Position numbers and translations under genes: made by a program. From Oscillospiraceae bacterium (GTDB lineage: Bacteria; Bacillota; Clostridia; Oscillospirales; Oscillospiraceae), in assembly GCA_017516925.1 (NCBI GenBank), contig JAFXAQ010000019.1:1-33423 (forward strand): DNA of 33,423 bases, read 5' to 3'. Below the pieces are notes generated by a model that did not search any database, was not told the origin of the DNA, and was given only the letters and a program-made list of their open reading frames with translations. How positions within the stretch are numbered: position 1 is the first letter of the stretch; each line of letters begins with the position of its first letter. This document shows positions 3,917 through 23,943 of this stretch, in pieces.

Positions 3917-5125
3917 ATGATGAGCGCAAAGATGAAAATGAAGTCCGTTGGCTGTTGCGTTAGTGATATTGTTTCTTCCGGTCATTCCTTTGCAGAGGCA
4001 TTGTTTTCTTTTAATTCCCCTGAATATGTTGTTTTTCCCGGCTTTTGTGATGTGCACGTGCATTTCCGTGAGCCGGGATTTTCTTATAAAGAGACAATGA
4101 AGACTGGAAGTGAAGCCTCTGCCCGGGGCGGCTACACTGCCGTTTGCACAATGCCCAACCTTAATCCGGTGCCGGACAGCCTGGAGCACCTGCAGCAGCA
4201 GCTGGACCTGATAGACCAAAATGCGGTAATTCACGTCTATCCCTATGGCGCCATCACAGTGGCAGAGCAGGGTGAGACTTTGGCGGACCTTGACGGCATG
4301 GCACCACAGGTGATTGCCTTTTCTGACGATGGCAGAGGCGTGCAGAGTGATGATATGATGCGTAGCGCAATGCGCCGCGCCAAAGCACTGGATAAAATGA
4401 TTGTGGCCCACTGCGAGGTGAACAGCCTGTTAAACGGCGGCTATATCCACGATGGTGAGTATGCAAGGCTTCACAATCATAAGGGCATTTGCAGCGCCAG
4501 CGAGTATGAACAGATTGCCCGGGATTTGCGCCTTGTGGAGGAAATTGGCTGCAGGTATCATGTGTGCCATATTTCCACCAAGGAGAGTGTGGAGATTATT
4601 AGAGCTGCCAAAAAACGTGGTGTGGACGTTACCTGCGAAACGGCACCCCATTACCTTGTAATGAACGATATGGACTTGCAGGAGCACGGGCGCTTCCGTA
4701 TGAACCCGCCCATCCGTAGCGAGGAAGACAGAAAGGCGCTTTTGGAAGGTGTTTTGGACGGTACCATTGATATGATTGCTACCGACCATGCTCCCCACAG
4801 TGCGGAAGAAAAGGGGAAAGGTCTCTCTGGCAGCGCTTTTGGTGTTGTAGGTATTGAAACTGCCTTCCCGGTGTTGTATACTTATCTTGTAAAACCTGGG
4901 ATTTTGACATTGGAAAAGCTGATTGACTTGTTGGTTTTCAACCCCAGAAGCCGTTTCCGGATTCCTTTGGGCGAGGACTACACAGTTTGGAATTTGGAAA
5001 AAGAGATGACGGTTGACCCAGCAGACTTTCTCTCTATGGGTAAAGCCACTCCCTTTGAAGGCTGGAAGGTTTTCGGCGAGTGTGTGCTGACTGTTTGTGA
5101 CGGAAATATAGTTTACAGAAAATAA
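3917..5125 (+). CDS. pyrC: Dihydroorotase
   Basis: A 402-residue amidohydrolase that closes carbamoyl-aspartate to dihydroorotate, third step of UMP synthesis. Metal site motifs: HVHFREPG with H47 and H49, the substrate-binding TMPNLNPVPDS, VAHCEVNSLL, YHVCHIST, and the catalytic ATDHAPHS. VTCETAPHYLVMNDMD and FRMNPPIR match class I (Bacillus-like) dihydroorotases. The protein is somewhat short at the N-terminus: the usual first beta-strands before the HVH motif are reduced to about 45 atypical residues. An AGGAGGAG site at 3903-3910 precedes two adjacent ATG codons; the first, at 3917, has the better spacing. It is the first gene of the pyr operon and 21 bases before carB. Confidence 0.95.
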   Translation: MMSAKMKMKSVGCCVSDIVSSGHSFAEALFSFNSPEYVVFPGFCDVHVHFREPGFSYKETMKTGSEASARGGYTAVCTMPNLNPVPDSLEHLQQQLDLIDQNAVIHVYPYGAITVAEQGETLADLDGMAPQVIAFSDDGRGVQSDDMMRSAMRRAKALDKMIVAHCEVNSLLNGGYIHDGEYARLHNHKGICSASEYEQIARDLRLVEEIGCRYHVCHISTKESVEIIRAAKKRGVDVTCETAPHYLVMNDMDLQEHGRFRMNPPIRSEEDRKALLEGVLDGTIDMIATDHAPHSAEEKGKGLSGSAFGVVGIETAFPVLYTYLVKPGILTLEKLIDLLVFNPRSRFRIPLGEDYTVWNLEKEMTVDPADFLSMGKATPFEGWKVFGECVLTVCDGNIVYRK

Positions 5126-5146: not shown

Positions 5147-8100
5147 ATGGCTAAGCGTAATGACATCAAAAAGGTACTCATTATCGGTTCCGGTCCCATT
5201 GTTATCGGACAGGCTGCCGAATTTGACTACGCAGGAACTCAGGCCTGTTTGGCGCTGAAAGAGGAAGGGTATGAGGTTGTTTTGTGCAACTCCAATCCTG
5301 CCACCATTATGACCGATACCACCATTGCGGATAAGGTCTATATGGAGCCTTTGACTTTGGAATACATTGCAAAAATCCTCCGTTATGAACGTCCGGATGC
5401 GATCATTCCCGGTCTGGGTGGTCAGACCGGTCTGAACCTGGCTATGCAGCTGGAAAAGAAGGGTGTCTTGAAGGAGTGCGGTGTGGAGCTGTTGGGCACC
5501 AGCAGTGCATCGATTGAGCGCGCCGAGGACAGAGACCTGTTCAAGCAGATGTGCGAAGATATCGGTGAGCCGGTAATCCCCTCTGAAATTACCTACTCCA
5601 TTGAAGAGGCAAAGAAGGCTGCTTTGCGGATTGGTTATCCGGTTGTGCTGCGCCCTGCCTTTACCCTTGGCGGTACCGGCGGTGGCTTTGCCTACAACGA
5701 GGAAGAGCTGGTGGAAGTGGGTCTGAATGCCTTTAAGCTTTCTCCTGTGCATCAGGTCCTGGTTGAAAAGAGCGTAAAGGGTTATAAGGAAATTGAATTT
5801 GAGGTTATGCGTGACAGCAATGACCACGCAATCACCATTTGCGGTATGGAGAACATTGACCCGGTTGGTGTTCACACCGGTGACTCCATCGTGGTAGCCC
5901 CCATTATGACCCTTTCCGACCACGACCAGAAAATGCTCAATGACTCCGCAATTAAAATTATCCGTGAGCTTAAGATTGAGGGCGGCTGTAATGTGCAGTT
6001 TGCACTGAATCCCCACTCCAGCGAATATTATCTCATTGAGGTCAATCCCAGAGTTTCCCGATCCTCTGCCTTGGCATCCAAAGCCTCCGGTTATCCTATT
6101 GCCCGTGTTACTGCCAAGATTGCTGTGGGTATGGCTTTGGAGGATATTTCCATTGCCAATACCAATGCCGCCTTTGAGCCTCAGCTTGATTATGTGATTG
6201 CCAAGCTGCCCCGATTCCCCTTCGATAAGTTTACCGCAGCCTCCAATTTGCTGGGCACCCAGATGAAGGCAACGGGTGAAGTAATGGGCATAGGCTCTAA
6301 TCTGGAGGAGGCGCTGCTGAAGGGCATCCGTTCTCTGGAAATTGGTGCGAACCATATTTATCACAGCAAGTTTGACGATATGCCCAATGATGAGATTCTT
6401 GCCTATATCCAACAGTTCCGGGATGATAACATTTTCGCCATTGCTGAGCTGCTGGCTCGTGGTGTTACTGTGGAACTGATTCATCAGATTACCCAGATTA
6501 CACCTTTCTTCCTGGAGGCAATCAAGAAAATTGTGGATATGGAGGAAACCCTGAAGGCAAATCCCAAGGATTTAGCCGTTCTTACAGAGGCGAAGAAGAT
6601 GGGCTTCAGCGATAAGTATGTTGCCCGTATGTGGAAGTGCACGGAACTGGATGTATTCCATTTCCGCAAGGAGCATAACCTGTTCCCTGTGTTCAAGATG
6701 GTGGATACCTGTCACACCGGGGCTTATATTCCGTATTTCTACTCCTCCTACAATGGCGAGAATGCGTCTGTTCTTACCGATAAAAAGAAAATTGTTGTCC
6801 TTGGTGCCGGTCCTATCCGTATCGGTCAGGGTGTGGAATTTGACTATTCCACTGTCCACGCAGTGACCACTATTAAGAATTCCGGCTATGAAGCAATTAT
6901 TATCAACAACAATCCGAAAACTGTTTCCACCGACTATACCACGGCGGATAAGCTCTACTTCGAGCCGCTGACACCGGAAGATGTTATGAACATCATTGAG
7001 TTTGAGAAGCCTGAGGGTGTTATTGCTTCTCTGGGCGGTCAGACCGCAATCAACCTTGCGCAGCCCTTGATGGACCGGGGTGTTAAGATTATCGGTACAG
7101 ATTGCGCTGCCATTGACAAGGCAGAAAACCGTGATGCCTTTGAAAAACTGCTTTCCGAACTGAACATTCCGCAGCCTATGGGCAAGGCTGTTACCAACAT
7201 TGAAGACGGTCTGGCAACTGCGGCAAGGATTGGTTATCCTGTTCTGGTGCGTCCCAGCTTTGTCCTTGGTGGCAGAGCAATGCAGATAGTTGCAAACGAA
7301 AGCCAGCTGCGTCACTACCTGAAAACCGCTGTGGAAATTGACGAGGACAAGCCTGTGCTGGTGGATAAGTATATTCAGGGTAAGGAAGTGGAAGTTGACG
7401 CAATTTGCGACGGTATCAACGTCTTCGTTCCCGGCATTATGGAGCTGGTAGAGCGTACCGGTGTTCACTCCGGCGACTCTATGAGCGTGTATCCTTCCTT
7501 CTCCATTTCCAATAAGGTTAAGGGAATTATTCTTCAGTATGCAAAGAAGCTGGGTCTGGGTATCGGTATTGTGGGTCTTTACAACATTCAGTTTATCGTG
7601 GATGAGGATGACAACGTGTTTATTATTGAGGTCAACCCCCGGTCCTCCCGTACGGTACCTTTCCTGAGTAAAGCTACCGGCTATAGTCTGGCGGATATTG
7701 CAACCGAGGTTATCCTTGGCAAGAGCCTGAAGGAGCAGGGCTTGTTCGATATCTATCCGGAGGAGAAGGACCGCTGGTATGTCAAGGCACCTGTGTTCTC
7801 CTTCAATAAGCTCCGTGGTCTGGATGCGTACCTGTCTCCTGAAATGAAGTCTACCGGCGAGGCAATCGGCTATGACGATAAGCTTAACCGTGCACTTTTC
7901 AAGGCATTGCAGGCTTCCGGTATGCACTTGCAGAACTACGGTACTGTCTTCGCCACCATTGCGGACAAGGATAAAGAGGAGGCGCTGCCTCTGATTCGCC
8001 GGTTCTATAATCTGGGCTTTAACATTCAGGCAACGGTAGGTACTGCTCAGTTCCTGAAGTCCAATGGAATCCGGACCCATATTCTGGGCAAAATCAGCGA

Positions 8101-8320
8101 GGGTAGCGAGGAAATTCCCGAAGCCCTGCGTCAGGGGCATATTGCCTATGTAATCAACACCAGAGACCCCGGTGCGGACAGCCCCAACAATGACGGTCAC
8201 CAAATCCGCTTGCTGGCAACGGAGTGCAACGTAACTATCTTTACTGCGCTGGATACGGTTCGTGTGCTTTTGGACGTTCTGGAAGAAACCACCCTGACCA
8301 TTTCCACCATTGATGCCTAA
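5147..8320 (+). CDS. carB: Carbamoyl-phosphate synthase large subunit
   Basis: A full-length 1057-residue CarB. It has the duplicated ATP-grasp structure: an N-terminal carboxyphosphate half (VLIIGSGPIVIGQAAEFDY, EVNPRVSRSSALASKA), an oligomerisation region, and a second carbamoyl-phosphate half (VVLGAGPIRIGQGVEFDY, EVNPRSSRTVPFLSKA). A C-terminal MGS-like allosteric domain follows (about residues 935-1057). The enzyme makes carbamoyl phosphate from bicarbonate, two ATP and ammonia that is normally channelled from the glutaminase CarA. No carA is adjacent or anywhere in the window, so CarA must be encoded elsewhere or the enzyme uses free ammonia. AGGAGG lies upstream of the ATG; pyrK follows after 9 bases. 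Confidence 0.97.
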   Translation: MAKRNDIKKVLIIGSGPIVIGQAAEFDYAGTQACLALKEEGYEVVLCNSNPATIMTDTTIADKVYMEPLTLEYIAKILRYERPDAIIPGLGGQTGLNLAMQLEKKGVLKECGVELLGTSSASIERAEDRDLFKQMCEDIGEPVIPSEITYSIEEAKKAALRIGYPVVLRPAFTLGGTGGGFAYNEEELVEVGLNAFKLSPVHQVLVEKSVKGYKEIEFEVMRDSNDHAITICGMENIDPVGVHTGDSIVVAPIMTLSDHDQKMLNDSAIKIIRELKIEGGCNVQFALNPHSSEYYLIEVNPRVSRSSALASKASGYPIARVTAKIAVGMALEDISIANTNAAFEPQLDYVIAKLPRFPFDKFTAASNLLGTQMKATGEVMGIGSNLEEALLKGIRSLEIGANHIYHSKFDDMPNDEILAYIQQFRDDNIFAIAELLARGVTVELIHQITQITPFFLEAIKKIVDMEETLKANPKDLAVLTEAKKMGFSDKYVARMWKCTELDVFHFRKEHNLFPVFKMVDTCHTGAYIPYFYSSYNGENASVLTDKKKIVVLGAGPIRIGQGVEFDYSTVHAVTTIKNSGYEAIIINNNPKTVSTDYTTADKLYFEPLTPEDVMNIIEFEKPEGVIASLGGQTAINLAQPLMDRGVKIIGTDCAAIDKAENRDAFEKLLSELNIPQPMGKAVTNIEDGLATAARIGYPVLVRPSFVLGGRAMQIVANESQLRHYLKTAVEIDEDKPVLVDKYIQGKEVEVDAICDGINVFVPGIMELVERTGVHSGDSMSVYPSFSISNKVKGIILQYAKKLGLGIGIVGLYNIQFIVDEDDNVFIIEVNPRSSRTVPFLSKATGYSLADIATEVILGKSLKEQGLFDIYPEEKDRWYVKAPVFSFNKLRGLDAYLSPEMKSTGEAIGYDDKLNRALFKALQASGMHLQNYGTVFATIADKDKEEALPLIRRFYNLGFNIQATVGTAQFLKSNGIRTHILGKISEGSEEIPEALRQGHIAYVINTRDPGADSPNNDGHQIRLLATECNVTIFTALDTVRVLLDVLEETTLTISTIDA

Positions 8321-10672: not shown

Positions 10673-11326
10673 ATGGAAGCTTATAAAAGAGAATTTATTC
10701 AGTTCCTTGAGAGTGCTGGTGTTTTGAAGTTTGGCGACTTTACTGCCAAATCCGGCAGAAAGATTCCCTACTTTGTTAATGCCGGTATGATCAAGACCGG
10801 TGACCAGATTACCAAAATGGGCGAATTTTACGCTAAGGCATATCTGGAAAAGCTGGGCAATAAGAAGGCGGTTCTGTACGGACCTGCCTACAAGGGCATT
10901 TCTTTGTCCATTTCTGCCGCCGTTGCCCTGAGTAAGGGTGGCTTGGATTTGCCTTTCTTTTTTAACCGTAAAGAGGTCAAGGACCACGGCGAAGGCGGTA
11001 CCTTTGTGGGCTATGTACCTCAGTCCGGTGAGGAGATTGTCATCATTGAGGATGTGATTACTGCCGGTACTGCTATCCGGGAAAGCATGGAGATTTTAAG
11101 TCACCTGGAGGGCACCAAGGTTGTGGCAACCTTCATTATGGTGGACCGCAAGGAAAAAGGACAGTCTGATAAGGGCGCAATGCAGGAAATCGAGGAGCTG
11201 TTCGGCTTCCCGGTATATTCTGTTGTGGATGTTTATGACATCATTGAATATCTGGAGGAGGACCCTGCCAACGCAGAGAATGTTCAGAGAATCCGCAACT
11301 ATCTTGCGGTGAACGGAGCAAAGTAA
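10673..11326 (+). CDS. pyrE: Orotate phosphoribosyltransferase
   Basis: A 217-residue type I phosphoribosyltransferase converting orotate and PRPP to OMP. The PRPP-binding motif [15 protein letters not shown], the catalytic loop region [15 protein letters not shown] and the [11 protein letters not shown] strand are all present. The start ATG at 10673 follows AAGGAGA at 10660-10666 and gives [18 protein letters not shown]; the longer open frame upstream overlaps pyrF without a binding site. It is one of the shorter Clostridial PyrE proteins with an extended C-terminal helix. The last base overlaps the first base of pyrB (TAATG). Confidence 0.96.
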
Positions 11327-12414
11327 TGAGAAGCTTAATTGATATTACGGATTTTTCCGTGGAAGAGGTCGACCAGCTTTTAAAGACTGCCTGTGATATC
11401 AGTGAAAACCCCGGGAAGTACAGCAATGCCTGCCGTGGCAAAAAGCTTGCAACCTTATTCTTTGAGCCCTCTACCCGCACCCGCCTGAGCTTTGAGGCGG
11501 CAATGTATGAACTGGGTGGCAATGTGTTGGGCTTTAGCGATGCCGGTACATCCTCCGCCTCCAAGGGCGAGAGTGTCGCCGACACTGCTAAAATGATTAG
11601 CTGCTATGCGGATATTATGGCAATGCGTCACCCCAAGGAGGGCGCCCCTTATGTGGCTGCCCGCAGTGCGTCCATTCCGGTGATTAACGCCGGTGACGGC
11701 GGTCACTGCCATCCCACCCAAACCTTGGCAGACCTTTTGACCATTTATCGGGAATTGGGTAGGCTGGAAAACCTGACTGTGGGCTTTTGCGGAGACCTGA
11801 AGTATGGCAGAACGGTCCATTCTTTGATTTCGGCCCTTGCACGCTATCATAACATTAAGATTGTGCTGATTTCTCCGGAGGAGCTGGCGCTTCCCAAGTA
11901 TGTCAGGTATGAGGTGCTGGATAAATACAATATGTCCTATGAGGAAACCACATCCCTTGAAAACGCATTGCCTCAGCTGGATGTGCTGTATATGACTCGT
12001 ATCCAGCGGGAGCGTTTTGACAGCTTTGATGAGTATGAACGGTTGAAGGACAGCTATGTTCTGACTGCAGAAAAGATGACCTTGGCGAAAGAGCATATGC
12101 GAGTGCTGCATCCTCTGCCCAGAGTGAATGAAATTTCTGTTAAGGTGGATGAAGATTCACGTGCCGCATATTTCCGTCAGGCACTGAACGGCAAGCTAAT
12201 GCGTATGGCTTTGATTCTGAAGCTGTTAAAGGAAGCGGAAGAGGGCAAGCAGATGGAAGAACCTAAGGATGTTGTAGTGGACGCGCTTCACTGCGACAAC
12301 CCCCGCTGCATTACGTCTACAGAACAGGAAATTGTGCATACCTTCAAGTGCGTGAACCGTGAAAACGGCATTTATCGCTGCATTTACTGCGAGGCAAAGA
12401 AGAAGAAAAACTAA
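11326..12414 (+). CDS. pyrB: Aspartate carbamoyltransferase fused to a PyrI-type zinc domain
   Basis: A 362-residue protein. Residues 1 to about 302 are a complete ATCase catalytic chain: [16 protein letters not shown] (carbamoyl phosphate site), [39 protein letters not shown] and [10 protein letters not shown]. Residues from about 318 match the C-terminal zinc domain of the regulatory chain PyrI, with four spaced cysteines C323-x4-C328 and C352-x2-C355 ([12 protein letters not shown] and YRCIYCEAK). The N-terminal nucleotide-binding domain of PyrI is absent. In E. coli the PyrI zinc domain contacts catalytic chains and the allosteric domain binds CTP/ATP. This fusion should therefore keep the structural contact but lack nucleotide control (inference). 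It is the last gene of the operon. Confidence 0.95.
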
Positions 12415-12697: not shown

Positions 12698-13186
12698 ATG
12701 AAAAAAGTTGGTATTGTTATGGGAAGCGACAGCGATTTGCCCATTATTCAAAAGGCAACGGATATGCTTAAAAGCCTGGAAATCCCTTTCGAGGTGCACG
12801 TATATTCTGCCCACAGAACCCCCGTCGAAGCTAGGGATTTTGCGCTATCCGCAAGAGATAACGGCTTCGGCGTTTTAATTGCTGCAGCCGGTATGGCTGC
12901 CCATCTGGCCGGCGCCATTGCCGCCAACTCCACCTTGCCGGTAATCGGTATTCCCTGCAAGGGCCCCGTGCTTGACGGTATGGATGCGCTTTTGGCAACT
13001 GTACAGATGCCCACCGGTATTCCTGTGGCAACTGTGGCTATCAACGGCGGCGCCAATGCAGCGCTTTTGGCGGCCCAGATTTTGGCAGTGTCAGATGAAG
13101 CGCTTGCCAGAAAGCTGGATGAAAAGCGTATTAAGGATGCCAAGGCTGTTCTTGAAAAGGACACCGGCATTTTGGAAAGACTGTAA
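12698..13186 (+). CDS. purE: 5-(carboxyamino)imidazole ribonucleotide mutase / AIR carboxylase
   Basis: A 162-residue PurE of the small octameric type, acting at the carboxylation step that gives CAIR. Motifs: [17 protein letters not shown] (phosphate and substrate binding), [11 protein letters not shown] with the catalytic-region histidine, [15 protein letters not shown], and [24 protein letters not shown]. The ATG at 12698 follows AGGAGG at 12685-12690, directly after the U-tract of the riboswitch terminator. No purK is present in the operon. Whether it works as an N5-CAIR mutase with a remote PurK or carboxylates AIR directly with CO2 cannot be settled by eye. Confidence 0.95.
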
Positions 13187-13227: not shown

Positions 13228-13914
13228 ATGGAAAAGAAGCTTGTGTATACTGGTAAGACCAAGAACGTTTACGCTCTTGAAAATGGCAATTATTTGCTTA
13301 AGTTCAAGGACGACTGCACCGGCAAAGACGGTGTATTTGATCCCGGTGAAAACTCTGTGGGTTTGACCATTGAGGGCGTGGGTGATGTGAACCTGCGTAT
13401 GTCCATTTATTTCTTCGAAAAAATCAATGCTGCCGGCATTAAGACTCACTATGTCAGCGCTGATTTGGCTAATACCACAATGGAAGTTCTTCCCGGTAAG
13501 GTTTTTGGCAAGGGCCTGGAAGTTATCTGCCGTTACAAGGCTGTAGGCTCCTTCTACCGCCGCTATTCCGATTATTGCACAGAAGGTCAGGATTTGCCTG
13601 CCTATGTGGAAACCACCTTCAAAAACGACGAGAAGGGTGACCCCCTGGTAACTAAGGACGGTCTGGTAGATTTGGGCGTTATGACTGCCCAGCAGTATGA
13701 TGACCTGAAGGCTATGACCCAGGCTATCACCAAAATTGTTGCCGATGATTTGAAGGAAAAGGGTCTGGATATGTATGATATCAAGTTTGAGTTCGGTTAT
13801 GACGCAGATGGCAAGGTGATGCTTATTGACGAGATTGCTTCCGGTAATATGCGCGTATACAAGGATGGTCAATATATTGACCCCATGACCTTGAACAAGC
13901 TGTTCTTCGCATAA
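13228..13914 (+). CDS. purC: SAICAR synthetase
   Basis: A 228-residue ATP-dependent ligase joining CAIR and aspartate to give SAICAR. Features: [20 protein letters not shown] (the K-x-K-x-V-Y start of the family), [20 protein letters not shown], the central [16 protein letters not shown], and the metal/ATP site [16 protein letters not shown] near the end. AAAGGAGAA at 13213-13221 precedes the ATG at 13228; an open frame continues a little upstream without a better start. It follows purE by 41 bases and precedes purF by 21. The adenylosuccinate lyase (PurB) needed for the next step is not in the window. Confidence 0.95.
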
Positions 13915-13935
13915 TTATCCAAAAGGAGTTTCGCA

Positions 13936-15357
13936 ATGGGAGGCTTTTTCGGAATCGCATCCAGGCAGGACTGCATGATGGATGTGTTCTTTGGCGTGGA
14001 TTATCATTCCCATCTGGGCACACGCCGCGGCGGTATGGCCGCCTATGATCCGCAGATTGGTCTGCAACGAAAGATTCATAACATCGAAAATGCGCCGTTT
14101 CGCACCAAGTTTGAGCATATTTTCGATGAAATGCAGGGAACTTCTGCCATTGGCTGTATCAGTGACAGCGACCCGCAGCCGATGCTGATTCGTTCCAAGC
14201 TGGGCACATTTGCCGTTGCCACAGTTGGTATTGTGAACAATGCCGAAGAGTTGATTGAAAAATACCTTACGCACGGTGGCCACTTTGACGCAATGACCGG
14301 CGGTAAGGTTAATGCAACGGAATTGATCGCGTCACTTATTTCTCTGAAAAACAATTTTACCGAGGGCATTCAGTTTGTTCAGCAGGAGATTGACGGTACG
14401 GCGAATATTCTTATTTTGGAAGAAAACGGTAATTTGATTGCCGCCCGCGACCGCTTGGGTAGAATCCCTGTTCAAATCGGAAAGAATGAAGACGGTTACT
14501 GTGCTTCTTTTGAACAGTTTGCTTACACAAAATTGGGATTTGAACACGTTTGCGAGTTAGGTCCCGGTGAAATCGTCGAGCTTTCCGCAAGCGGTATGCG
14601 TCAGCTATCTGCACCAGGAAAGGATATGCGGATGTGCGCATTCCTTTGGAGCTATTATGGCTATCCGACTTCCACCTATGAAGGCATCAATGTGGAGGCA
14701 ATGCGCTATCGTAACGGCGCGGCCATTGCCGAGCGTGATATGGCGCAGGGCAGAAGTATGGATATTGATTATGTGGGTGGAGTTCCGGATTCCGGTACGC
14801 CTCATGCAATCGGCTATGCCAACCGTACCGGCAGACCCTTTGCACGGGCATTTATCAAATACACCCCCACTTGGTCCAGAAGCTTTACTCCGGCTCGTCA
14901 GTCGGACAGAAACAAAATTGCCAAGATGAAGCAAATTCCGGTTCATGAGCTGATTGTGAACAAGAACCTGTTATTTGTGGATGATTCGATTGTTCGCGGC
15001 ACTCAGCTTCGCGAGACCGTTGAATTTCTCTATGAAAACGGAGCGAAATCTGTGCATATGCGCTCTGCTTGCCCGCCGATTATGTACGGCTGTAAGTTCT
15101 TGAATTTCTCCAGAGCTACCAGCGATATGGAGCTGATTACACGTCAGACGATTATGGAGCTGGAAGGGGAAGCGGGATTTGCACATTTGGAGGAATATGC
15201 CGACGGAAATACCGAACGCGGTAGGAAAATGCGGAAGGCAATTTGCGAAAAATTCAAGTTTGATTCTTTGGGCTTCCAAACAGTGGATGGTGTCGTAAAA
15301 GCCATTGGTTTGGAGCCGTGCAAATTGTGCACCTATTGCTGGAACGGTAAAGAATAA
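13936..15357 (+). CDS. purF: Amidophosphoribosyltransferase homologue lacking the catalytic cysteine
   Basis: A 473-residue PurF-family protein (PRPP + NH3 to phosphoribosylamine, first purine step). Normal PurF exposes an N-terminal cysteine (C-G-x-F-G) after processing; here the start reads [12 protein letters not shown], with glycine in its place. The start is fixed by AAGGAG at 13921-13926. Other glutaminase residues are changed too: the usual HRGQ segment is [12 protein letters not shown], and the HNGNL glutamine-binding loop is IVNNAEEL. The phosphoribosyltransferase half looks intact, with the PRPP motif [13 protein letters not shown] (about residues 345-357) and [13 protein letters not shown]. 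The cysteines that hold the 4Fe-4S cluster in the Bacillus type seem kept ([19 protein letters not shown]). It probably uses free ammonia or a separate glutaminase (inference). Confidence 0.9.
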
Positions 15358-15374: not shown

Positions 15375-16424
15375 ATGGCTGAGAAGAGCTATTCTGCAAG
15401 CTACGCCGCAGCAGGCGTGGATATTACTGCCGGTTATCGCGCGGTAGAGCTGATGAAGAAACACGTTGCCCGCACCCGTAATGAGGGCTGCCTGGATGAT
15501 GTAGGCGGCTTTGGTGGCTGCTTCGGTCTGCCGGTTGCCGGTATGGAAGAGCCGGTGCTGGTCTCCGGCACTGACGGCTGCGGTACCAAGGTGAAGCTGG
15601 CAATTTTAATGGACAAGCACGATACTATCGGCATTGATGCTGTGGCCATGTGTGTCAATGATATTATCTGTGTTGGCGCAAAGCCCCTGTTTTTCCTGGA
15701 TTACATTGCCTGCGGCAAGAACATCCCTGAAAAGATTGCCCAGATTGTTGCCGGTGTGGCAGAGGGCTGTGTTCAGTCCGGTGCTGCCCTGATTGGCGGC
15801 GAAACCGCAGAGCACCCCGGTATGATGCCTGTGGAGGAATATGACCTTGCGGGCTTTGCGGTTGGTATCGTGGATAAGAAAAAGATTTTGGACAACACCA
15901 AAATGGCTGTGGGCGATGTAGTCATTGCACTGCCCTCCACCGGCATCCACTCCAACGGCTTCAGCCTGTGCCGTAAGGTGTTTGATATCGATAACAACAA
16001 CCCTGACCTGTATGTGCCGAAAGCAGAGTTGGGCGGCAAAACCACCGCTGAGGCTTTGCTGACTCCTACTAAAATTTACGTAAAGCCCGTACTGGCACTG
16101 CTGGAAAAGGTAAATGTAAAGGGCATCAGTCACATTACCGGCGGCGGCTTCTACGAGAATATTCCCCGCAGCATTCCCGACGGTTTAGGCGCAAAGATTA
16201 ACCGCAGTGCGGTTAAGGTGCTGCCGATTTTTGATTTGATTGCCAAAACCGGCAATATTCCTGAGCGAGATATGTTCAATACCTATAATATGGGTGTTGG
16301 TATGAGCATTGTTGTACCTGCGGACCAGGTTGAGAATGCCATTGCTATTTTGAAAGAAAATGGCGAAGATACATACGTGATTGGCGAAATTATTGCCGCT
16401 GAGGATAAAATTATTATCGAATAA
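15375..16424 (+). CDS. purM: Phosphoribosylformylglycinamidine cyclo-ligase (AIR synthetase)
   Basis: A 349-residue member of the PurM/PurL ATP-binding superfamily that closes the imidazole ring to give AIR. Recognisable parts: [40 protein letters not shown], the substrate loop [67 protein letters not shown] and the C-terminal [14 protein letters not shown]. It starts with ATG at 15375 after TAAGGAGA, 17 bases after purF. Confidence 0.97.
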
Positions 16425-16439: not shown

Positions 16440-17048
16440 ATGGAGAAGGCGAGAATTGCGGTCCTGGTATCCGGTGGCGGAACCAATCTGCAAGCGCTGA
16501 TTGATGCGCAAAATTCCGGAAGGTTGTGCAGCGGTGAGATTAAGCTTGTCATTGCCAACAACGCAGATGCATATGCGCTTACCCGTGCAAAAACAGCCGG
16601 TATTGCCACAGAAATTGTTTTGAAAAAGTCCTGCGGCAGTCAAGAAGCCTTCGAAGAAAAAATCAAAAAGCTATTAACGACGCATAGAATTGATTTAATC
16701 GTACTGGCAGGCTTTATGTCCATTCTCAGCGAGAATTTTACTTCTGCCTATCCCAAACGCATTCTCAATGTCCACCCCTCTTTGATTCCCGCATTTTGCG
16801 GTGCTGGCTTTTATGGGCTTCGTGTCCACCAGGAAGCCCTAGCCTATGGTGTAAAGGTGACCGGCGCTACTGTACACTTTGTCAATGAAATTCCTGACGG
16901 CGGAGAAATTATTTTCCAAAAAGCCGTGGAAGTTCAAGAGGGTGATACACCGGAGGTTTTGCAAAAACGTGTTATGGAGCAGGCAGAGTGGATCATTCTC
17001 CCTGCTGCAGTCGAAAAAGTCAGTCAGTCAATTGTGAAAGGAAGCTAA
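16440..17048 (+). CDS. purN: Phosphoribosylglycinamide formyltransferase
   Basis: A 202-residue folate-dependent GAR transformylase. N-terminal AVLVSGGGTNLQALIDAQNS binds the substrate phosphate. The catalytic residues lie in ILNVHPSLIPAF (N and H) and VHFVNEIPDGGEII (D). The LIVLAGFMSILS strand is also typical. It uses 10-formyl-tetrahydrofolate, the same cofactor as the AICAR formyltransferase two genes downstream, which fits folate-status control by the ZTP riboswitch. The start ATG at 16440 follows AAAGGGGAGAGG; it is 15 bases after purM and 4 before the next gene. Confidence 0.96.
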   Translation: MEKARIAVLVSGGGTNLQALIDAQNSGRLCSGEIKLVIANNADAYALTRAKTAGIATEIVLKKSCGSQEAFEEKIKKLLTTHRIDLIVLAGFMSILSENFTSAYPKRILNVHPSLIPAFCGAGFYGLRVHQEALAYGVKVTGATVHFVNEIPDGGEIIFQKAVEVQEGDTPEVLQKRVMEQAEWIILPAAVEKVSQSIVKGS

Positions 17049-17052
17049 GCAT

Positions 17053-17766
17053 ATGAACGTGTATGAAACCGGTAATTTAAGCCAGATGCTGTCCACCAAT
17101 ACATATCCCGGACGTGGCATTATTTTGGGTGTAACCCCTGACGGCACTAAGTCTGTGGCAGCGTATTTCATTATGGGACGCAGTGTCAACAGCCGCAACC
17201 GGGTGTTCGTGCAGGAGCCTGACGGAATCCGCACCGAAGCCCACGACCCCAGCCTGATGAAGGACCCGCATTTGATTATCTATCATCCTGTCCGTGAGGC
17301 AGGCTGTGGACTGATTGTCACCAACGGTGACCAGACAGACACCATTTGGGAATATCTTGCCAGGGGCGAAAGCTGGGAAAGTGCATTGCGTACCCGGATG
17401 TTTGAGGATGACGGTCCCAACTGGACACCCCGTATTTCCGGTTTGCTTGCTAAAGATGGCAGCTACAAAATGTCCATCCTGAAGTCAGCGGATGCTGAGG
17501 GCAGTGCCTGCGCCCGCTTCTTCTATGAATACCCCGGAATTGCCGGCTTGGGTCATTTTATCCATACCTATGTCTGCGACGGCAATCCGGTTATTCCCAC
17601 CTTCCAGGGGGAGCCGGAGCGTGTTGCCTTGGACAACGATATGGAAGCCTTTACCAATATGCTGTGGGAAAATTTGAATCCGGACAATAAGATTTCTCTG
17701 TTTGTCCGTTACACCGATTTGAAGACCGGTGAATATTCTCAGAAAATTATTAACAAGCACGCATAA
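17053..17766 (+). CDS. IMP cyclohydrolase, PurO-like
   Basis: A 237-residue protein of the stand-alone IMP cyclohydrolase family related to archaeal PurO. It closes FAICAR to IMP, the last step of the pathway. It begins MNVYETGNLSQMLSTNTYPG and contains PGRGIILGVTPDGTKSVAAY, the IMGRSVNSRNRVF segment and HDPSLMKDPHLIIYHPVRE; the latter two are conserved in this family as I recall it. It has no similarity to the N-terminal MGS-like domain of bifunctional PurH. Its position directly before the AICAR formyltransferase gene supports the role. An AAGGAAG site lies at 17038-17045 just inside the end of purN. Confidence 0.88.
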   Translation: MNVYETGNLSQMLSTNTYPGRGIILGVTPDGTKSVAAYFIMGRSVNSRNRVFVQEPDGIRTEAHDPSLMKDPHLIIYHPVREAGCGLIVTNGDQTDTIWEYLARGESWESALRTRMFEDDGPNWTPRISGLLAKDGSYKMSILKSADAEGSACARFFYEYPGIAGLGHFIHTYVCDGNPVIPTFQGEPERVALDNDMEAFTNMLWENLNPDNKISLFVRYTDLKTGEYSQKIINKHA

Positions 17767-17779
17767 AGGAGAGAAAGAT

Positions 17780-18964
17780 ATGAAAGAGTTTGAACTGAAG
17801 TATGGCTGCAATCCCAATCAGAAACCTGCAAAACTGTATATGCACGATGGCAGTGACTTGCCCTTTACCATTTTGAACGGACGTCCCGGCTACATTAACT
17901 TTATGGATGCCCTGAACTCCTGGCAGCTGGTTAAGGAGTTGAAGGAAGCCACCGGTATGGTTGCCGCAACTTCCTTTAAGCACGTTTCTCCCACCTCTGC
18001 TGCTGTGGGCAAGCCTCTGGATGCAGACCTGAAGAAGGCTTGCTTTGTAGATGATGTGGAAGGTCTTGACGAGAACCCTCTGGCCTGCGCGTATGCCCGT
18101 GCCCGTGGCACCGACCGTATGTGCTCTTTTGGCGACTGGGTAGCCCTTTCCGATGTTTGTGACGAAATGACTGCCAAACTCATTGCCCGTGAGGTTTCTG
18201 ACGGTGTGATTGCCCCCGGCTATACCGAGGAAGCACTGGCAGTTCTCAAAACCAAGCGTAAGGGTAGCTACAACGTAGTTGCCATCAACCCGGATTTTGT
18301 ACCTGCGGTTGAAGAAAATAAGCAGGTGTTCGGCATCACCTTCCAGCAGGGGCGCAATAACTTTAAGATTAACGAGGAATTGCTGCAAAATGTGGTTACC
18401 GAAAACAAGGAAATTCCCCAGAGCGCAAAAATCGACCTGATTGTTGCGCTGATTACGCTGAAATATACCCAGTCCAACTCTGTTTGCTATGCTGTTGACG
18501 GACAGGCTATCGGTGTCGGCGCCGGTCAGCAAAGCCGTATTCACTGCACCAGACTGGCTGGCAGCAAGGCAGATACCTGGTTCCTGCGTCAGCACCCCAA
18601 GACTCTGGCGTTGCCCTTCCGTGAGGATTTGGGCAGACCCAATCGTGATAACGTTATCGATGGCTACATCAACGGAAATGAAGAGGATGTCTGCGCTGAG
18701 GGTATTTGGCAGAACTACTTTACAACCCAGCCCGAGCGCTTGACGGAGGAAGATAAGAAGGCATGGCTTGCCAGCCGCCAGAACGTGGCTTTGGGCTCAG
18801 ATGCATTCTTCCCCTTCAGTGACAATATTAAGCGCGCTTATGCTTCCGGTGTGAAGTACATTGCGGAACCCGGCGGCTCTATCCGGGATGATCTGGTCAT
18901 CGAGGAGTGCAATAAGAAGGGAATTGCCATGGCATTTACCGGAATGCGTCTGTTCCATCACTAA
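17780..18964 (+). CDS. purH: Stand-alone AICAR formyltransferase (PurH C-terminal domain type)
   Basis: A 394-residue protein equivalent to the transformylase part of PurH only. It formylates AICAR with 10-formyl-tetrahydrofolate to FAICAR. The Lys-His catalytic pair is in SFKHVSPTSAAVG (K67, H68). KYGCNPNQKPA, DRMCSFGDWVALSD, YTQSNSVCYAVDGQ, IGVGAGQQSRIHCTRLAG and EPGGSIRDDLVIEECNKKG all match the transformylase. The MGS-like IMP cyclohydrolase domain that normally precedes it (about 200 residues) is missing and is replaced by the adjacent PurO-like protein. The ATG at 17780 follows AAAGGAGAG. It overlaps the upstream edge of the purD region by one base. Confidence 0.93.
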   Translation: MKEFELKYGCNPNQKPAKLYMHDGSDLPFTILNGRPGYINFMDALNSWQLVKELKEATGMVAATSFKHVSPTSAAVGKPLDADLKKACFVDDVEGLDENPLACAYARARGTDRMCSFGDWVALSDVCDEMTAKLIAREVSDGVIAPGYTEEALAVLKTKRKGSYNVVAINPDFVPAVEENKQVFGITFQQGRNNFKINEELLQNVVTENKEIPQSAKIDLIVALITLKYTQSNSVCYAVDGQAIGVGAGQQSRIHCTRLAGSKADTWFLRQHPKTLALPFREDLGRPNRDNVIDGYINGNEEDVCAEGIWQNYFTTQPERLTEEDKKAWLASRQNVALGSDAFFPFSDNIKRAYASGVKYIAEPGGSIRDDLVIEECNKKGIAMAFTGMRLFHH

Positions 18965-18975
18965 TGGAGGAAGCT

Positions 18976-20241
18976 ATGAAGATAATGGTTGTCGGTGGTG
19001 GCGGCAGAGAGCACACCATCATCAAAAAACTAAAAGAAAATCAAACCATCACAGAAATTTTTGCATTGCCCGGTAATGGCGGTATGGCAAAGGATGCTAC
19101 CTGTGTCAATATTGCTGCGACGGATTTAGACGGAATTGTTGCCTTTGCGAAGGAAAACGCTATTGACTATGCTGTGGTTGCGCCTGATGACCCTCTGGTT
19201 TTGGGTTGTGTGGACCGCTTGAATGAAATTGGCATTCCTTGCTTCGGTCCCAATGCAAAGGCGGCAATTATCGAGGGAAGTAAAGCTTTTTCCAAGGATT
19301 TGATGAAAAAGTATAATATTCCTACCGCTACCTACGAAACCTTTACTGATATTGAAAAGGCATTGGCATACGTTGAAAGCTGCGCCATTCCTGTAGTTGT
19401 CAAAGCAGACGGCTTGGCATTGGGTAAGGGCGTTATTATTGCCCAGAATCGTCAGGAAGCCATTGATGCGGTAACGGATATGATGGCAAATGCTAAGTTC
19501 GGTAAATCGGGCTCTACTGTGGTGATTGAAGAATTTTTGACCGGTCCAGAGGTATCTGTCCTTGCTTTTACCGACGGTAATGTGGTCAAACCTATGGTGT
19601 CCTCTATGGACCATAAGCGGGCAGGGGACAATGACACAGGCCTGAATACCGGCGGTATGGGTACCATTGCGCCCAATCCTTATTACACTGAGGACATAGC
19701 CAAAACCTGTATGAAAACCATTTTTCTGCCCACAATTGCGGCAATGAATGCGGAGGGGCGAACCTTCCGGGGTTGTCTGTACTTTGGGTTGATGCTTATC
19801 CCCAACGGGCCTAAGGTCATTGAATATAACTGCCGCTTCGGAGACCCGGAAACACAGGTAGTCCTGCCCTTGCTGGAGAGTGACTTGCTGACAGTTATGC
19901 AGGCAACTACCAATGGTACACTGGCTGATACGGAGGTCAAATTCTCTGACAAGTGTGCTTGCTGTGTTGTTACTGCTTCTGCCGGATATCCGGCAAGCTA
20001 TGAAAAGGGCTTTGAGATTACAATGACCGAGGAAGCGGAGAAGCATACTTACGTTGCCGGTGCGAAACTGGAAAACGGAAAGCTTGTTACTTCCGGCGGT
20101 CGTGTCACCGGAACAACAGCGGTTGCGGACACCCTGCAGCAGGCGGTTAGTGAGGCTTACCGCCTTGCTGACGGCGTTTGCTTCCAAAATGCTTACCGCA
20201 GAAGCGATATCGGTCAGCGTGGATTAGCCGCATATAAATAA
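18976..20241 (+). CDS. purD: Phosphoribosylamine-glycine ligase (GAR synthetase)
   Basis: A 421-residue ATP-grasp ligase making GAR from phosphoribosylamine and glycine. It has the N-terminal MKIMVVGGGGREHTIIKKLK and CFGPNAKAAIIEGSKAFSK. The ATP-grasp core includes VVKADGLALGKGVIIA, VVIEEFLTGPEVSVLAFTDG, DHKRAGDNDTGLNTGGMG and EYNCRFGDPETQVVLP. An in-frame ATG at 18964 overlaps the previous stop, but GGAGGAA at 18966-18972 serves the ATG at 18976, which also matches the usual family start. It lies immediately downstream of the AICAR formyltransferase gene. Confidence 0.96.
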   Translation: MKIMVVGGGGREHTIIKKLKENQTITEIFALPGNGGMAKDATCVNIAATDLDGIVAFAKENAIDYAVVAPDDPLVLGCVDRLNEIGIPCFGPNAKAAIIEGSKAFSKDLMKKYNIPTATYETFTDIEKALAYVESCAIPVVVKADGLALGKGVIIAQNRQEAIDAVTDMMANAKFGKSGSTVVIEEFLTGPEVSVLAFTDGNVVKPMVSSMDHKRAGDNDTGLNTGGMGTIAPNPYYTEDIAKTCMKTIFLPTIAAMNAEGRTFRGCLYFGLMLIPNGPKVIEYNCRFGDPETQVVLPLLESDLLTVMQATTNGTLADTEVKFSDKCACCVVTASAGYPASYEKGFEITMTEEAEKHTYVAGAKLENGKLVTSGGRVTGTTAVADTLQQAVSEAYRLADGVCFQNAYRRSDIGQRGLAAYK

Positions 20242-20256
20242 GGAGGTTTTACCCCC

Positions 20257-23200
20257 ATGGTTTATCGTATTTTTGTTGAAAAAAAGAATGGTCTGGATAA
20301 TGAAGCAAAGGGACTTTTGAATGAGGCAAAGAATCTGCTGGGTATCAATACCTTGGAGAATATTCGGCTATTTAATCGTTATGATGTGGAGAATATTACC
20401 GAGGAACTGTTTGGGTACGCTGTCAAAACTGTATTTTCGGAGCCTCAGCTGGATAACACCTATGCTGATTTGCGGCTGCCTGGTGCATATGTATTTGCGG
20501 TGGAAGCGTTACCCGGTCAGTTTGACCAACGAGCTGATTCAGCTGCCCAGTGTATTCAAATTATCTCTCAGGGAGAGCGTCCTTTGGTTCGCACTGCCAA
20601 GGTTTACGGCTTGTACGGCAATTTAAGGGATGCTGACGTCGAAGCGTTTAAGAAGCACGTGATCAATGCTGTGGAAAGCCGGGAGGCGGATTTGGCATGT
20701 CCTGAGACACTGGCAGTACAATATGCTGCACCAGAGACCGTTGCGACCGTCACCGGTTTTATCGGTATGAATGATGAGGCATTGGCTGGACTGCTGGAAG
20801 AAAAAGGTCTGGCAATGGACCTGGACGACCTGAAGTTCCTGCAGGCCTACTTCCGTGACGAAGAGAACCGTGATCCCACGATTACGGAAATTCGTGTGGT
20901 TGATACCTACTGGTCCGACCACTGCCGCCATACCACCTTCTCTACCCATATTGATAACGTGCGGATTGATGACCCTGCGGTCCAGGCTGCCTATGAACGG
21001 TATCTGGATGCCCGTGTAGAGGTTTACGGTGAGGAAAAGGCAGCAAAACGTCCTCAAACCCTGATGGACATTGCTACCATTGGTACCAAGACCCTGAAAA
21101 AGCGTGGTCTTCTGCCGGAATTGGACGAATCCGAGGAAATCAATGCTTGCTCCATCCACGTGACGGCTAATGTCAACGGTGAGGACCAGGATTGGCTTTT
21201 GATGTTTAAAAACGAAACCCACAATCACCCCACGGAGATTGAACCCTTTGGCGGCGCAGCCACCTGTATTGGCGGTTGTATTCGCGACCCTCTTTCCGGA
21301 CGTGCATATGTCCATCAGGCGATGCGTGTCACCGGTGCAGGTGATCCCAGAAAGGCAATTTCTGAAACCCTGGCAGGCAAGCTGCCCCAGAGAAAGATTT
21401 GCCAGACTGCCGCAGCGGGTTATTCATCCTACGGCAATCAGATTGGTTTGGCTACCGGTCACGTGGCGGAAATTTACCACGATGGCTATGTTGCCAAGCG
21501 TCTGGAGTGCGGTGCGGTAGTTGCTGCGGCACCTGCATATAATGTTCGCCGTGAGCGCCCCGCTGCCGGAGATGTGGTGGTTTTGCTGGGTGGTAGAACC
21601 GGTCGTGACGGTATTGGCGGCGCTACCGGTTCCTCCAAGAGCCACAATATGAAGTCCTTGACTACCATGGCATCCGAGGTCCAGAAGGGTAATGCGCCTG
21701 AAGAGCGCAAGATTCAGCGCCTGTTCCGTAACCCGGAGGTCACCCGGCTGATTAAGCGTTGTAATGACTTTGGTGCCGGCGGTGTTTCCGTTGCCATCGG
21801 TGAGCTTGCTCCCGGACTGAAGATAGATTTGGACGCTGTCCGTAAGAAGTATGAGGGTCTTGACGGTACGGAGATTGCCATTTCGGAATCTCAGGAGCGT
21901 ATGGCAGTCGTTGTAGAAGAAAAGGATGCGGATGCGTTTATTGCAATGGCGCAGGCTGAGAACCTGGAAGCCTATCGTGTTGCTGTTGTTACCGAAGAGG
22001 AACGTATGGTAATGACCTGGAAGGGAAATACCATTGCGGACCTGAGCCGTGCGTTTCTGGACACCAACGGCGCAGTAAAGCACACAGAAGCGCATGTTAC
22101 CGAGAAGGATTTGTCTGTTTTGAGCAAAGCTCTGTATGGCAACCTGCGAGAAATGGCTTCTGATCTGAAAACAGCCTCCCAAAGAGGTCTTGTGGAGCGC
22201 TTTGATGCCACCATTGGCGCCGGTTCGGTAACAATGCCCTTTGGCGGAAAGCGCCAGCTGACACCTGCCCAGTCTATGGCAGCGGTGCTGCCGGTGCTGC
22301 CCGGCCAGGAAACTGACCAAGCCTCTGTATTTAGCTGGGGCTGTGATCCGGATTACCTTTCCGTGGATCCTTACTCTGGCGCCCATGCAGCAATTTATCA
22401 TTCTGTTGCCAAGCTGGTTGCGGCTGGCTGCGATTACAAACAGGCTTATCTGACGCTGCAGGAATTCTTTGAGCGCCTGCGAAATGAGCCGACTCGCTGG
22501 GGCAAGCCCTTTGCAGCGCTGCTGGGCGCCCTGGATGCCCAGCTGGAATTAGGTGCCGCTGCTATCGGTGGCAAGGATTCTATGTCCGGAACATTCCTGG
22601 ACCTGGATGTTCCTCCCACACTGATTTCCTTTGCCATTGCGCCGATTAAAAAGCAGGATGTGTTAACACCGGAGTTCAAGGAAGCCGGACACCCTGTATA
22701 TCTGTTTGGCGCAACAGATGAAAGTGCGGATAGTCTCAAGACAGCTTGGGAAGCCTTCCATACCCTTCATAAGGCAGGCAAGGTAAAGGCTGCCTGGGCG
22801 GTTGAACATGGAATCGGCGAGGCTGTTATGAAGATGTCCTTCGGTAACAATGTAGGTTTTGACTCCTGCACTGACACCGATGACTGGCATTGCCGTCTGT
22901 GGGGCTTCCTGGTAGCGGAGCTGACGGAGGATGTGAATATCCCTGGCGTTATGAAGCTGGGCGAAACCACAGCTGAGCCGATTATCACGCTGGGTGCTGA
23001 TACAGCCACAATTGCTGAGTTGTATAAGCTGAATGCCCAAACCCTCGAGAGTGTTTATCCTGTTCAGGCAAGAGAAGAACCCGGTAAGATGCCCACCTTC
23101 TCCTTTGAGGGTAAGTGCAATATTGCGCCTGCAATCAAGGTTGCAAAGCCCAAGGTTCTGATTCCGGTTTTCCCGGGCACGAACTGTGAATATGACTCTG

Positions 23201-23943
23201 CCCGGGCTGTGGAAACGGCAGGGGCTGAGGCAGAAATCCTTGTTGTGCGCAATCTCACCGCTGAGGATGTTAGCCGAAGTGTTGCGGAATTCTCTGCAAA
23301 AGTGAAGAATGCTCAGATGATTTTCATTCCCGGCGGTTTTTCCGGCGGTGACGAGCCGGATGGCTCCGCAAAGTTTATCACCGCCTTCTTCCGCAATCCT
23401 GCGGTAAAGGATGCGGTTACCGATTTGTTGGACAACCGGGACGGTCTGATGTGCGGTATTTGTAACGGTTTCCAGGCGCTGATTAAGCTTGGCTTGGTTC
23501 CCTACGGCAAGATTGTTGACACCGATGAGAACTGTCCCACCTTGACCTTTAACAATATTGGTCGCCACCAGAGCCGCATAGTTCGCACCCGGATTGCCTC
23601 CACAAAGTCTCCCTGGCTGAGTCGAATGCATGTTGGTGATGTGGTAAATGTTCCCATTTCCCACGGTGAAGGCAAATTCCTTGCTTCTGCGGAACTGATT
23701 GCGCAGCTGGCTGCCAACGGACAGATTGCTACGCAGTATGTGGATTTGGATGGCAAGGCTACTGCCGACATTGATTTCAATCCAAATGGTTCTTTGTGTG
23801 CAATTGAAGGCATTACCTCTCCGGACGGCAGAGTGTTCGGTAAAATGGGTCACAGCGAGCGTATTGGTAACGGCCTGTACAGGAATGTTCCCGGTAATTA
23901 TGATATCGAAATGTTCAAGGCCGCTGTAGATTATTTCAAGTAA
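20257..23943 (+). CDS. purL: Phosphoribosylformylglycinamidine synthase, single-chain
   Basis: A 1228-residue large PurL that converts FGAR to FGAM with ATP and glutamine. The N-terminal PurS-like part (about 1-170) is followed by two PurM-like halves with DTYWSDHCRHTTFSTHI, NETHNHPTEIEPFGGAATC, VVLLGGRTGRDGIGGATGSS and LGAAAIGGKDSMSGTF. A class I glutaminase domain starts at about residue 965 (VLIPVFPGTNCEYDSARAV). It keeps the nucleophile C1069 in CGICNGFQALIKLG and the H1136/E1138 pair in PISHGEGKF, so unlike PurF in this operon it can use glutamine. AAGGAGG precedes the ATG at 20257. It is the last gene before the bidirectional terminator. Confidence 0.97.
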   Translation: MVYRIFVEKKNGLDNEAKGLLNEAKNLLGINTLENIRLFNRYDVENITEELFGYAVKTVFSEPQLDNTYADLRLPGAYVFAVEALPGQFDQRADSAAQCIQIISQGERPLVRTAKVYGLYGNLRDADVEAFKKHVINAVESREADLACPETLAVQYAAPETVATVTGFIGMNDEALAGLLEEKGLAMDLDDLKFLQAYFRDEENRDPTITEIRVVDTYWSDHCRHTTFSTHIDNVRIDDPAVQAAYERYLDARVEVYGEEKAAKRPQTLMDIATIGTKTLKKRGLLPELDESEEINACSIHVTANVNGEDQDWLLMFKNETHNHPTEIEPFGGAATCIGGCIRDPLSGRAYVHQAMRVTGAGDPRKAISETLAGKLPQRKICQTAAAGYSSYGNQIGLATGHVAEIYHDGYVAKRLECGAVVAAAPAYNVRRERPAAGDVVVLLGGRTGRDGIGGATGSSKSHNMKSLTTMASEVQKGNAPEERKIQRLFRNPEVTRLIKRCNDFGAGGVSVAIGELAPGLKIDLDAVRKKYEGLDGTEIAISESQERMAVVVEEKDADAFIAMAQAENLEAYRVAVVTEEERMVMTWKGNTIADLSRAFLDTNGAVKHTEAHVTEKDLSVLSKALYGNLREMASDLKTASQRGLVERFDATIGAGSVTMPFGGKRQLTPAQSMAAVLPVLPGQETDQASVFSWGCDPDYLSVDPYSGAHAAIYHSVAKLVAAGCDYKQAYLTLQEFFERLRNEPTRWGKPFAALLGALDAQLELGAAAIGGKDSMSGTFLDLDVPPTLISFAIAPIKKQDVLTPEFKEAGHPVYLFGATDESADSLKTAWEAFHTLHKAGKVKAAWAVEHGIGEAVMKMSFGNNVGFDSCTDTDDWHCRLWGFLVAELTEDVNIPGVMKLGETTAEPIITLGADTATIAELYKLNAQTLESVYPVQAREEPGKMPTFSFEGKCNIAPAIKVAKPKVLIPVFPGTNCEYDSARAVETAGAEAEILVVRNLTAEDVSRSVAEFSAKVKNAQMIFIPGGFSGGDEPDGSAKFITAFFRNPAVKDAVTDLLDNRDGLMCGICNGFQALIKLGLVPYGKIVDTDENCPTLTFNNIGRHQSRIVRTRIASTKSPWLSRMHVGDVVNVPISHGEGKFLASAELIAQLAANGQIATQYVDLDGKATADIDFNPNGSLCAIEGITSPDGRVFGKMGHSERIGNGLYRNVPGNYDIEMFKAAVDYFK

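Follow-up and report, generated by a model that had tools for sequence, protein, structure and literature searches.

A gene of the main purine operon of an Oscillospiraceae draft genome encodes a PurF homolog that has lost the N-terminal cysteine, and we estimate a probability of roughly 70% that its product is a PurF-derived synthase that forms 5-phosphoribosylamine in an ammonia-dependent reaction and that probably serves as the organism's only PurF. Cys1 is the glutaminase nucleophile of PurF. The loss of this nucleophile and of the glutamine-binding residues, together with the retention of the PRPP loop and of the cysteines and the location at the purF place, points to such a synthase. The phosphoribosyltransferase half would combine PRPP with free NH3 to give phosphoribosylamine; the domain that once was the glutaminase (N-domain) would be retained as a structural or regulatory part bearing a conserved site of a new kind. 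Likewise, the carB that co-occurs without carA would provide carbamoyl phosphate from NH3, and the purine and pyrimidine pathways would both start from ammonia. More tentatively, and at somewhat less than even odds, a widespread group of gut Clostridia may start both pathways from free ammonia. In these bacteria, a new conserved site, perhaps one for ammonium or a regulatory ligand, would have taken the place of the glutaminase site of PurF, and the enzyme would work alongside a carA-less carB, the two genes forming an operon in one family.

The Cys1-less gene and its operon

The window analyzed, a stretch of 33,423 nucleotides, is contig C14 of a 1.65-Mb draft genome (G000; 83.55% complete) and carries a pyrimidine gene cluster followed by the purine operon, with the operon genes, the riboswitch, and carB on the forward strand. 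A ZMP-ZTP riboswitch (RF01750, 12568–12650; 53.6 bits, gathering threshold 39) precedes purE (12698–13186; TIGR01162, above cut-off), a divergent purC (13228–13914; TIGR00081, 112.6 bits, cut-off 189.9) and the Cys1-less gene (13936–15357), followed by purM (15375–16424; TIGR00878), purN (16440–17048; TIGR00639), a PurO-like IMP cyclohydrolase (17053–17766; PF07826), a stand-alone AICAR formyltransferase (17774–18964; NF005492), purD (18964–20241; TIGR00877) and purL (20257–23943; TIGR01857). The Cys1-less gene thus holds the purF place of a ZTP-riboswitch operon with genes for most later purine steps. The glutaminase domain of PurL (GATase_5) is intact, with the motifs GICNG (1067) and HGEG (1136), in agreement with the initial annotation. 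Both purC and the IMP cyclohydrolase scored well under their NCBIfam cut-offs, so that part of the operon is of a divergent type.

ORF translation and domain and profile searches assigned a product of 473 aa, with Gly at the position of Cys1, to the Cys1-less gene (referred to as MGG type after its first residues). The start had been described as fixed by an AAGGAG site, and this holds: the ribosome-binding site, read from the sequence, lies at 13923–13928, 7 nt upstream of the ATG. The purC stop codon (TAA, 13912–13914) is in frame with this ATG and, by eye, neither a Cys codon nor an alternative start lies between the two, so an upstream start cannot restore Cys1; a misassigned start hiding Cys1 was ruled out on these grounds. 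Among the matches listed, every MGG-type relative carries G or S in place of Cys1 and none carries C. In the MSG variants, Ser2 was considered as a candidate new nucleophile.

Homology to PurF extends over nearly the whole protein: hhalign aligned residues 3–472 to a profile of seven canonical PurF proteins from related genomes (probability 100, E 1.5e-52). The NCBIfam purF model (TIGR01134) gave 168 bits, below its cut-off of 350, and the closest solved relative was B. subtilis PurF (206 bits with the family profile). The reported loss of the glutamine-binding loops was confirmed by alignment to canonical PurF, with HLGT in place of HRGQ, TVGI in place of HNGN, a deletion of eight residues around Arg73, and Asp127 not kept. 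Arg73, Asn101, and Asp127, which we take to be glutamine-binding residues in E. coli PurF numbering, are deleted or replaced in the window protein. Codons 22–33 (13999–14034) occupy the HRGQ region; D22, Y23, H24, S25, H26, and L27 are invariant in both alignments (A1 and A2), and the N-terminal motif DYHSHLGT is new, conserved, and common to MGG-type relatives.

The PRPP motif and the iron-sulfur cysteines had correctly been described as retained. The PRPP loop DDSIVRGT (codons 349–356; 14980–15003) is invariant across the MGG alignment, as are the flexible-loop residues Q322, R325, and K332. The four predicted cluster cysteines (B. subtilis type) are Cys234 at the first ligand position (14635–14637), Cys386 (15091–15093), Cys465 (15328–15330), and Cys468 (15337–15339), all 100% conserved both among the MGG sequences and among the 14 sequences of the canonical set. 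Two further features were specific to the family, namely KYTPTW at codons 308–313 (14857–14874), where canonical PurF has KNxY, and an insertion at codons 403–428 (15142–15219) absent in canonical PurF, recognized by alignment and profile comparison, with R403, G411, and Y421 conserved.

Conservation of the former glutaminase domain

Residues were tabulated for 125 MGG-type members (length >440, score >450, GG or SG at positions 2–3; duplicates and L039 removed) and for the 14 canonical sequences, which include the divergent L134 without a CG motif. In the MGG set, 124 columns reached an identity of 99% or more; the N-domain accounts for 49 of these, and two of the columns, M1 and G3, were forced by the construction of the set. 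Fifty-six columns conserved at this level differed from the canonical majority, among them D22, Y23, H24, H48, P54, R56, T57, K58, F59, D77, and N126, as well as W238, Y243, T310, T312, and W313. In a tree of 42 MGG members and 14 proteins of the canonical set, one long branch (support 0.84) split the two groups.

The N-domain is under purifying selection. Its dN/dS was 0.071, 0.057, and 0.063 in three comparisons, at high dS values of 1.9–2.3 (dS was saturated in the other two), vs. 0.036 and 0.034 for the transferase half in two comparisons (dS was saturated in the other three). By this measure, constraint is weaker on the N-domain than on the transferase half, yet the new motif is nearly invariant, which suggests that some ligand is bound. 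A pseudogene or a decaying domain was ruled out by the N-domain conservation.

Gene neighborhood and a possible partner glutaminase

Across 93 purine-operon loci (some genomes counted twice), the gene preceding the MGG-type purF was purC in 62, purE in 27, a canonical purF in 2, and none within the locus in 2; the gene following it was purM in 88, a canonical purF in 4, and none within the locus in 1. A canonical purF therefore adjoined it in 6 of the 93 loci (L044–L046, L101, L137, L145). ZTP riboswitches were present in 4 of 8 operon loci scanned. The flanking gaps were mostly short; the 816 nt upstream of the gene in L051 hold one 89-aa ORF, the 367 nt downstream of it in L047/L065 hold no ORF, and purB lies within an operon gap in L046 and others. 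In addition, the gene was located outside the purine operon in 14 loci of the order.

Split pairs of synthase and glutaminase, such as CarA-CarB and PurQ-PurL, are common, and the initial annotation had named a partner amidotransferase among its options. The MGG-type protein would then be the synthase half of a two-part enzyme, receiving ammonia from a separate glutaminase in trans, which we regard as unlikely. A candidate partner is encoded on another contig of the window genome (C28; L052:775–1818): this stand-alone protein of 348 aa starts with MCNIAGYAG, with an N-terminal Met-Cys, and resembles a class-II amidotransferase by eye, with a weak purF match (E 0.077) and no Pfam match. However, no family was common to more than two of the 14 stand-alone loci, the two best-shared pairs being from same-genus genomes, and no glutaminase was found among the ORFs examined in gaps >300 nt of the 93 operon loci (by eye, with Pfam on 7). 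In 20 distant loci, the recurrent neighbors were carB and an unrelated-looking protein on the opposite strand, both confined to five loci of family f43, so that the sole recurrent same-strand non-purine neighbor was carB, without carA beside it. A scan for known RNAs near these 20 copies gave nothing in common: 4 of the loci had hits, namely one SAM riboswitch, three matches to the c-di-GMP-I riboswitch, and one tRNA. One distant locus (L187) has an AsnB-like gene on the opposite strand.

Family f43 lies outside the class of the window. In its five loci, from four genomes, the MGG-type gene starts 31–91 bp downstream of a second carB that has no neighboring carA, and the single above-cut-off carA of each genome adjoins the other carB. 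One genome (G380; L188, L189) holds two copies of the pair of orphan carB and MGG-type purF. On account of this pairing, the loss of carA was examined across the order (see below).

Distribution among genomes

In a sample of the phylum, 28 of 398 genomes had a match of at least 729 bits and the next match scored 233.1; the MGG label rests on this gap between at least 729 and <234 bits for other matches, and PurF was labeled canonical above 350 bits. The order sample comprised 148 genomes, all at least 95% complete except that of the window. The MGG type was present in 84 of these genomes and in 53 of 91 genera of the order, as well as in some genomes elsewhere in the phylum; 44 genomes lacking a match were assigned by subtraction. 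Canonical PurF was present in 110 of the 148. Both types occurred in 51 genomes, the MGG type only in 33, canonical PurF only in 59, and neither in 5; purD was present in 51/51, 32/33, 56/59, and 3/5 of these, respectively. Because purD was absent from just 3 of the 59 canonical-only genomes, missed genes should be few. In one carrier (G055), purD, carB, and carA were all absent; its sister G131 has these three genes on one contig, which is likely missing from G055. Among the best 80 of 231 named relatives, all were labeled MAG or uncultured, the nearest were labeled Oscillospiraceae, and many titles named herbivore gut sites.

For 33 of the 84 carriers in the order, the search thus found no PurF other than the MGG type, which favors genuine phosphoribosylamine synthesis with ammonia. 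In the remaining 51 carriers it occurs together with canonical PurF. The same is true of 21 of the 23 carriers outside the order set (the exceptions were G574 and G522), so that the MGG type is often a second enzyme. The simplest account would be an ammonia-dependent phosphoribosylamine synthase that is the only PurF in the 33 genomes and a second enzyme elsewhere.

The frequent co-occurrence with canonical PurF, the 14 loci outside the purine operon, the 56 family-specific conserved columns, and the C-terminal insertion would also fit a protein whose function has changed, an enzyme or regulator that binds PRPP but is not a source of phosphoribosylamine. We consider this quite unlikely, since purD accompanies the MGG type in all but one of the 33 carriers with no other PurF found, no variation is seen in the PRPP loop, in Q322, R325, and K332, or in the four cysteines, and the place of the gene in ZTP-riboswitch operons is that of purF. 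The search of the window genome gave no canonical PurF, and that one sits in the missing part of this draft, leaving the MGG-type protein as an accessory second PurF, is very unlikely: the 83.55% completeness would allow it, as would the presence of both types in seven of the ten same-genus genomes with a completeness of at least 95%, but none was found in two others of these ten, G021 (99% complete) and G011 (97%, protein search only), which are MGG-only (the tenth, G006, has a canonical-like match only), nor beside purC or purM in the window operon, its place in the six loci named above.

Frequent loss of carA in genomes relying on the MGG type

The initial annotation regarded the loss of glutaminase function as selective to PurF. 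This did not hold, since the same genome has a carB without carA and the pairing recurs. In the window, carB (5147–8320; TIGR01369, 1404.9 bits) is directly preceded by a dihydroorotase-like pyrC (3917–5125, by eye) rather than by carA, and no match to carA at E 1e-60 was found in the genome.

In the order sample, carA was absent from 28 and carB from 8 of the 148 genomes; carA was called at E up to 1e-60, which includes G052 (273 bits, under the cut-off), and 8 of the carA-less genomes were assigned by subtraction. Among carB-bearing genomes, carA was missing in 16 of 31 MGG-only genomes, compared to 1 of 50 with both types and 3 of 58 canonical-only genomes, i.e., 4 of 108 with canonical PurF (Fisher p 2e-9 for MGG-only vs. 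the other two groups). The 16 genomes, that of the window among them, span seven families, and 16 was not attained in any of 20,000 permutations within families (mean 6.9, maximum 13). Adjacency gave a similar picture: among the 150 best carB matches, a carB without adjacent carA was found in 18 of 28 MGG-only genomes, 5 of 45 with both types, and 4 of 50 canonical-only genomes, the cases in G152 and G079 being at contig ends. The single genome with both types and no carA has a carB that begins near a contig end; of the four canonical-PurF genomes with carB and no carA, one (G152) is a contig-end case.

A dihydroorotase-like gene precedes the orphan carB in the window and 18 other orphan carB genes examined by eye. 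In a carB tree of hand-chosen loci, these 19 orphan pyr-type genes formed one clade (support 0.82); another (support 1.0) united the f43 orphans with those of G187 and G099, two genomes that carry the MGG type. As the 19 examined orphans form one clade, the joint loss of carA and of the PurF glutaminase may reflect few events, a problem that permuting within families removes only in part. Two further observations count against the ammonia reading: carA is present in 15 of the 33 MGG-only genomes, and carB occurs without carA in the four canonical-PurF genomes, three of them canonical-only.

Gut ammonia is high. From the distribution and the residues, we infer that ammonia is probably used at the PurF step. 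The CarB subunit forms carbamoyl phosphate from ammonia, although the E. coli enzyme requires very high ammonia (PMC6245113). In E. coli PurF, replacement of Cys1 by Ala or Ser abolished the use of glutamine and left that of ammonia (PMC3261824). A PurF without Cys1 and a CarB would thus both use ammonia, and both changes would drop a glutaminase from an ammonia-capable enzyme. Among the three options of the initial annotation (free ammonia, a partner amidotransferase, or an altered function), the carB evidence favors ammonia.

Comparison with known systems and implications

The canonical enzymes (B. subtilis 1ao0/1gph, E. coli 1ecb) share with the MGG type the homology over residues 3–472, the PRPP loop, the four cysteines, and the purine operon; the MGG type differs from them in lacking Cys1, the glutamine-binding residues, and the Arg73 loop, and in having DYHSHLGT and the insertion at 403–428. 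The E. coli Cys1 mutants demonstrate that ammonia works without Cys1, but they are laboratory mutants (cited in PMC3261824), whereas the MGG type is a family that occurs in nature, is conserved, and has had its entire glutamine site rebuilt.

The nearest published case is the crenarchaeal PurF' (PMC3261824), which resembles the MGG type by description in lacking the N-terminal Cys and being located near purine genes, and for which ammonia-dependent synthesis was proposed. According to the same paper, many PurF' have Ala or Val at this position and each of the Crenarchaeota studied also has a canonical PurF. By contrast, the MGG type has Gly or Ser, is linked to carB without carA, and often occurs with no other PurF found, as in 33 of 84 order carriers and in the incomplete window genome. 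Neither the bacterial MGG family nor a link between it and the loss of carA was found described in the open literature, with subscription papers mostly outside this search; the loss of carA accompanying reliance on the MGG type is new here.

E. coli CarB alone is said, in work by Rubino from 1987 cited in PMC6245113, to be a synthase half working with ammonia; here, the carA-less state is natural and tracks the change in PurF. In the textbook pathway, nitrogen 9 of purines comes from glutamine through Cys1 of PurF. If it came from ammonia in these bacteria, their supply of both purines and pyrimidines would depend on ammonia in the gut, the MGG-type enzyme would escape glutamine analogues that target PurF, and the similarity-based name "glutamine amidotransferase" would mis-state the reaction. 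The family would also constitute a natural test of the ammonia proposal for archaeal PurF'.

Further observations in purine and pyrimidine loci

At least 10 loci have a small gene resembling formate/nitrite transporters between purM and purN, confirmed with PF01226 in L051:11193–11801, L091:10464–11081, and L107:4152–4769, and recognized by eye in L093, L102, L106, L110, L118, L120, and L127. It may perhaps provide formate for purine formylation, or transport another small nitrogen or carbon species. A third, divergent PurF-like protein of 410 aa (L134:6026–7255, minus strand; G072) occupies the purF place of a purine cluster; it scored 225 bits against TIGR01134 and lacks the usual CG start.

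In the pyrimidine cluster of the window, positions 11326–12414 read by eye as an aspartate carbamoyltransferase with a C-terminal cysteine motif resembling the regulatory chain, and several relatives have two separate pyrB-matching ORFs. The carA-linked carB of L246 (G053), L249 (G050), and L257 (G092), of approximately 1,340 codons, appears by eye to be an odd CarB-DapF fusion, in which the C-terminal approximately 290 residues resemble diaminopimelate epimerase; many more frames of 1,340–1,370 aa were present among the carB matches.
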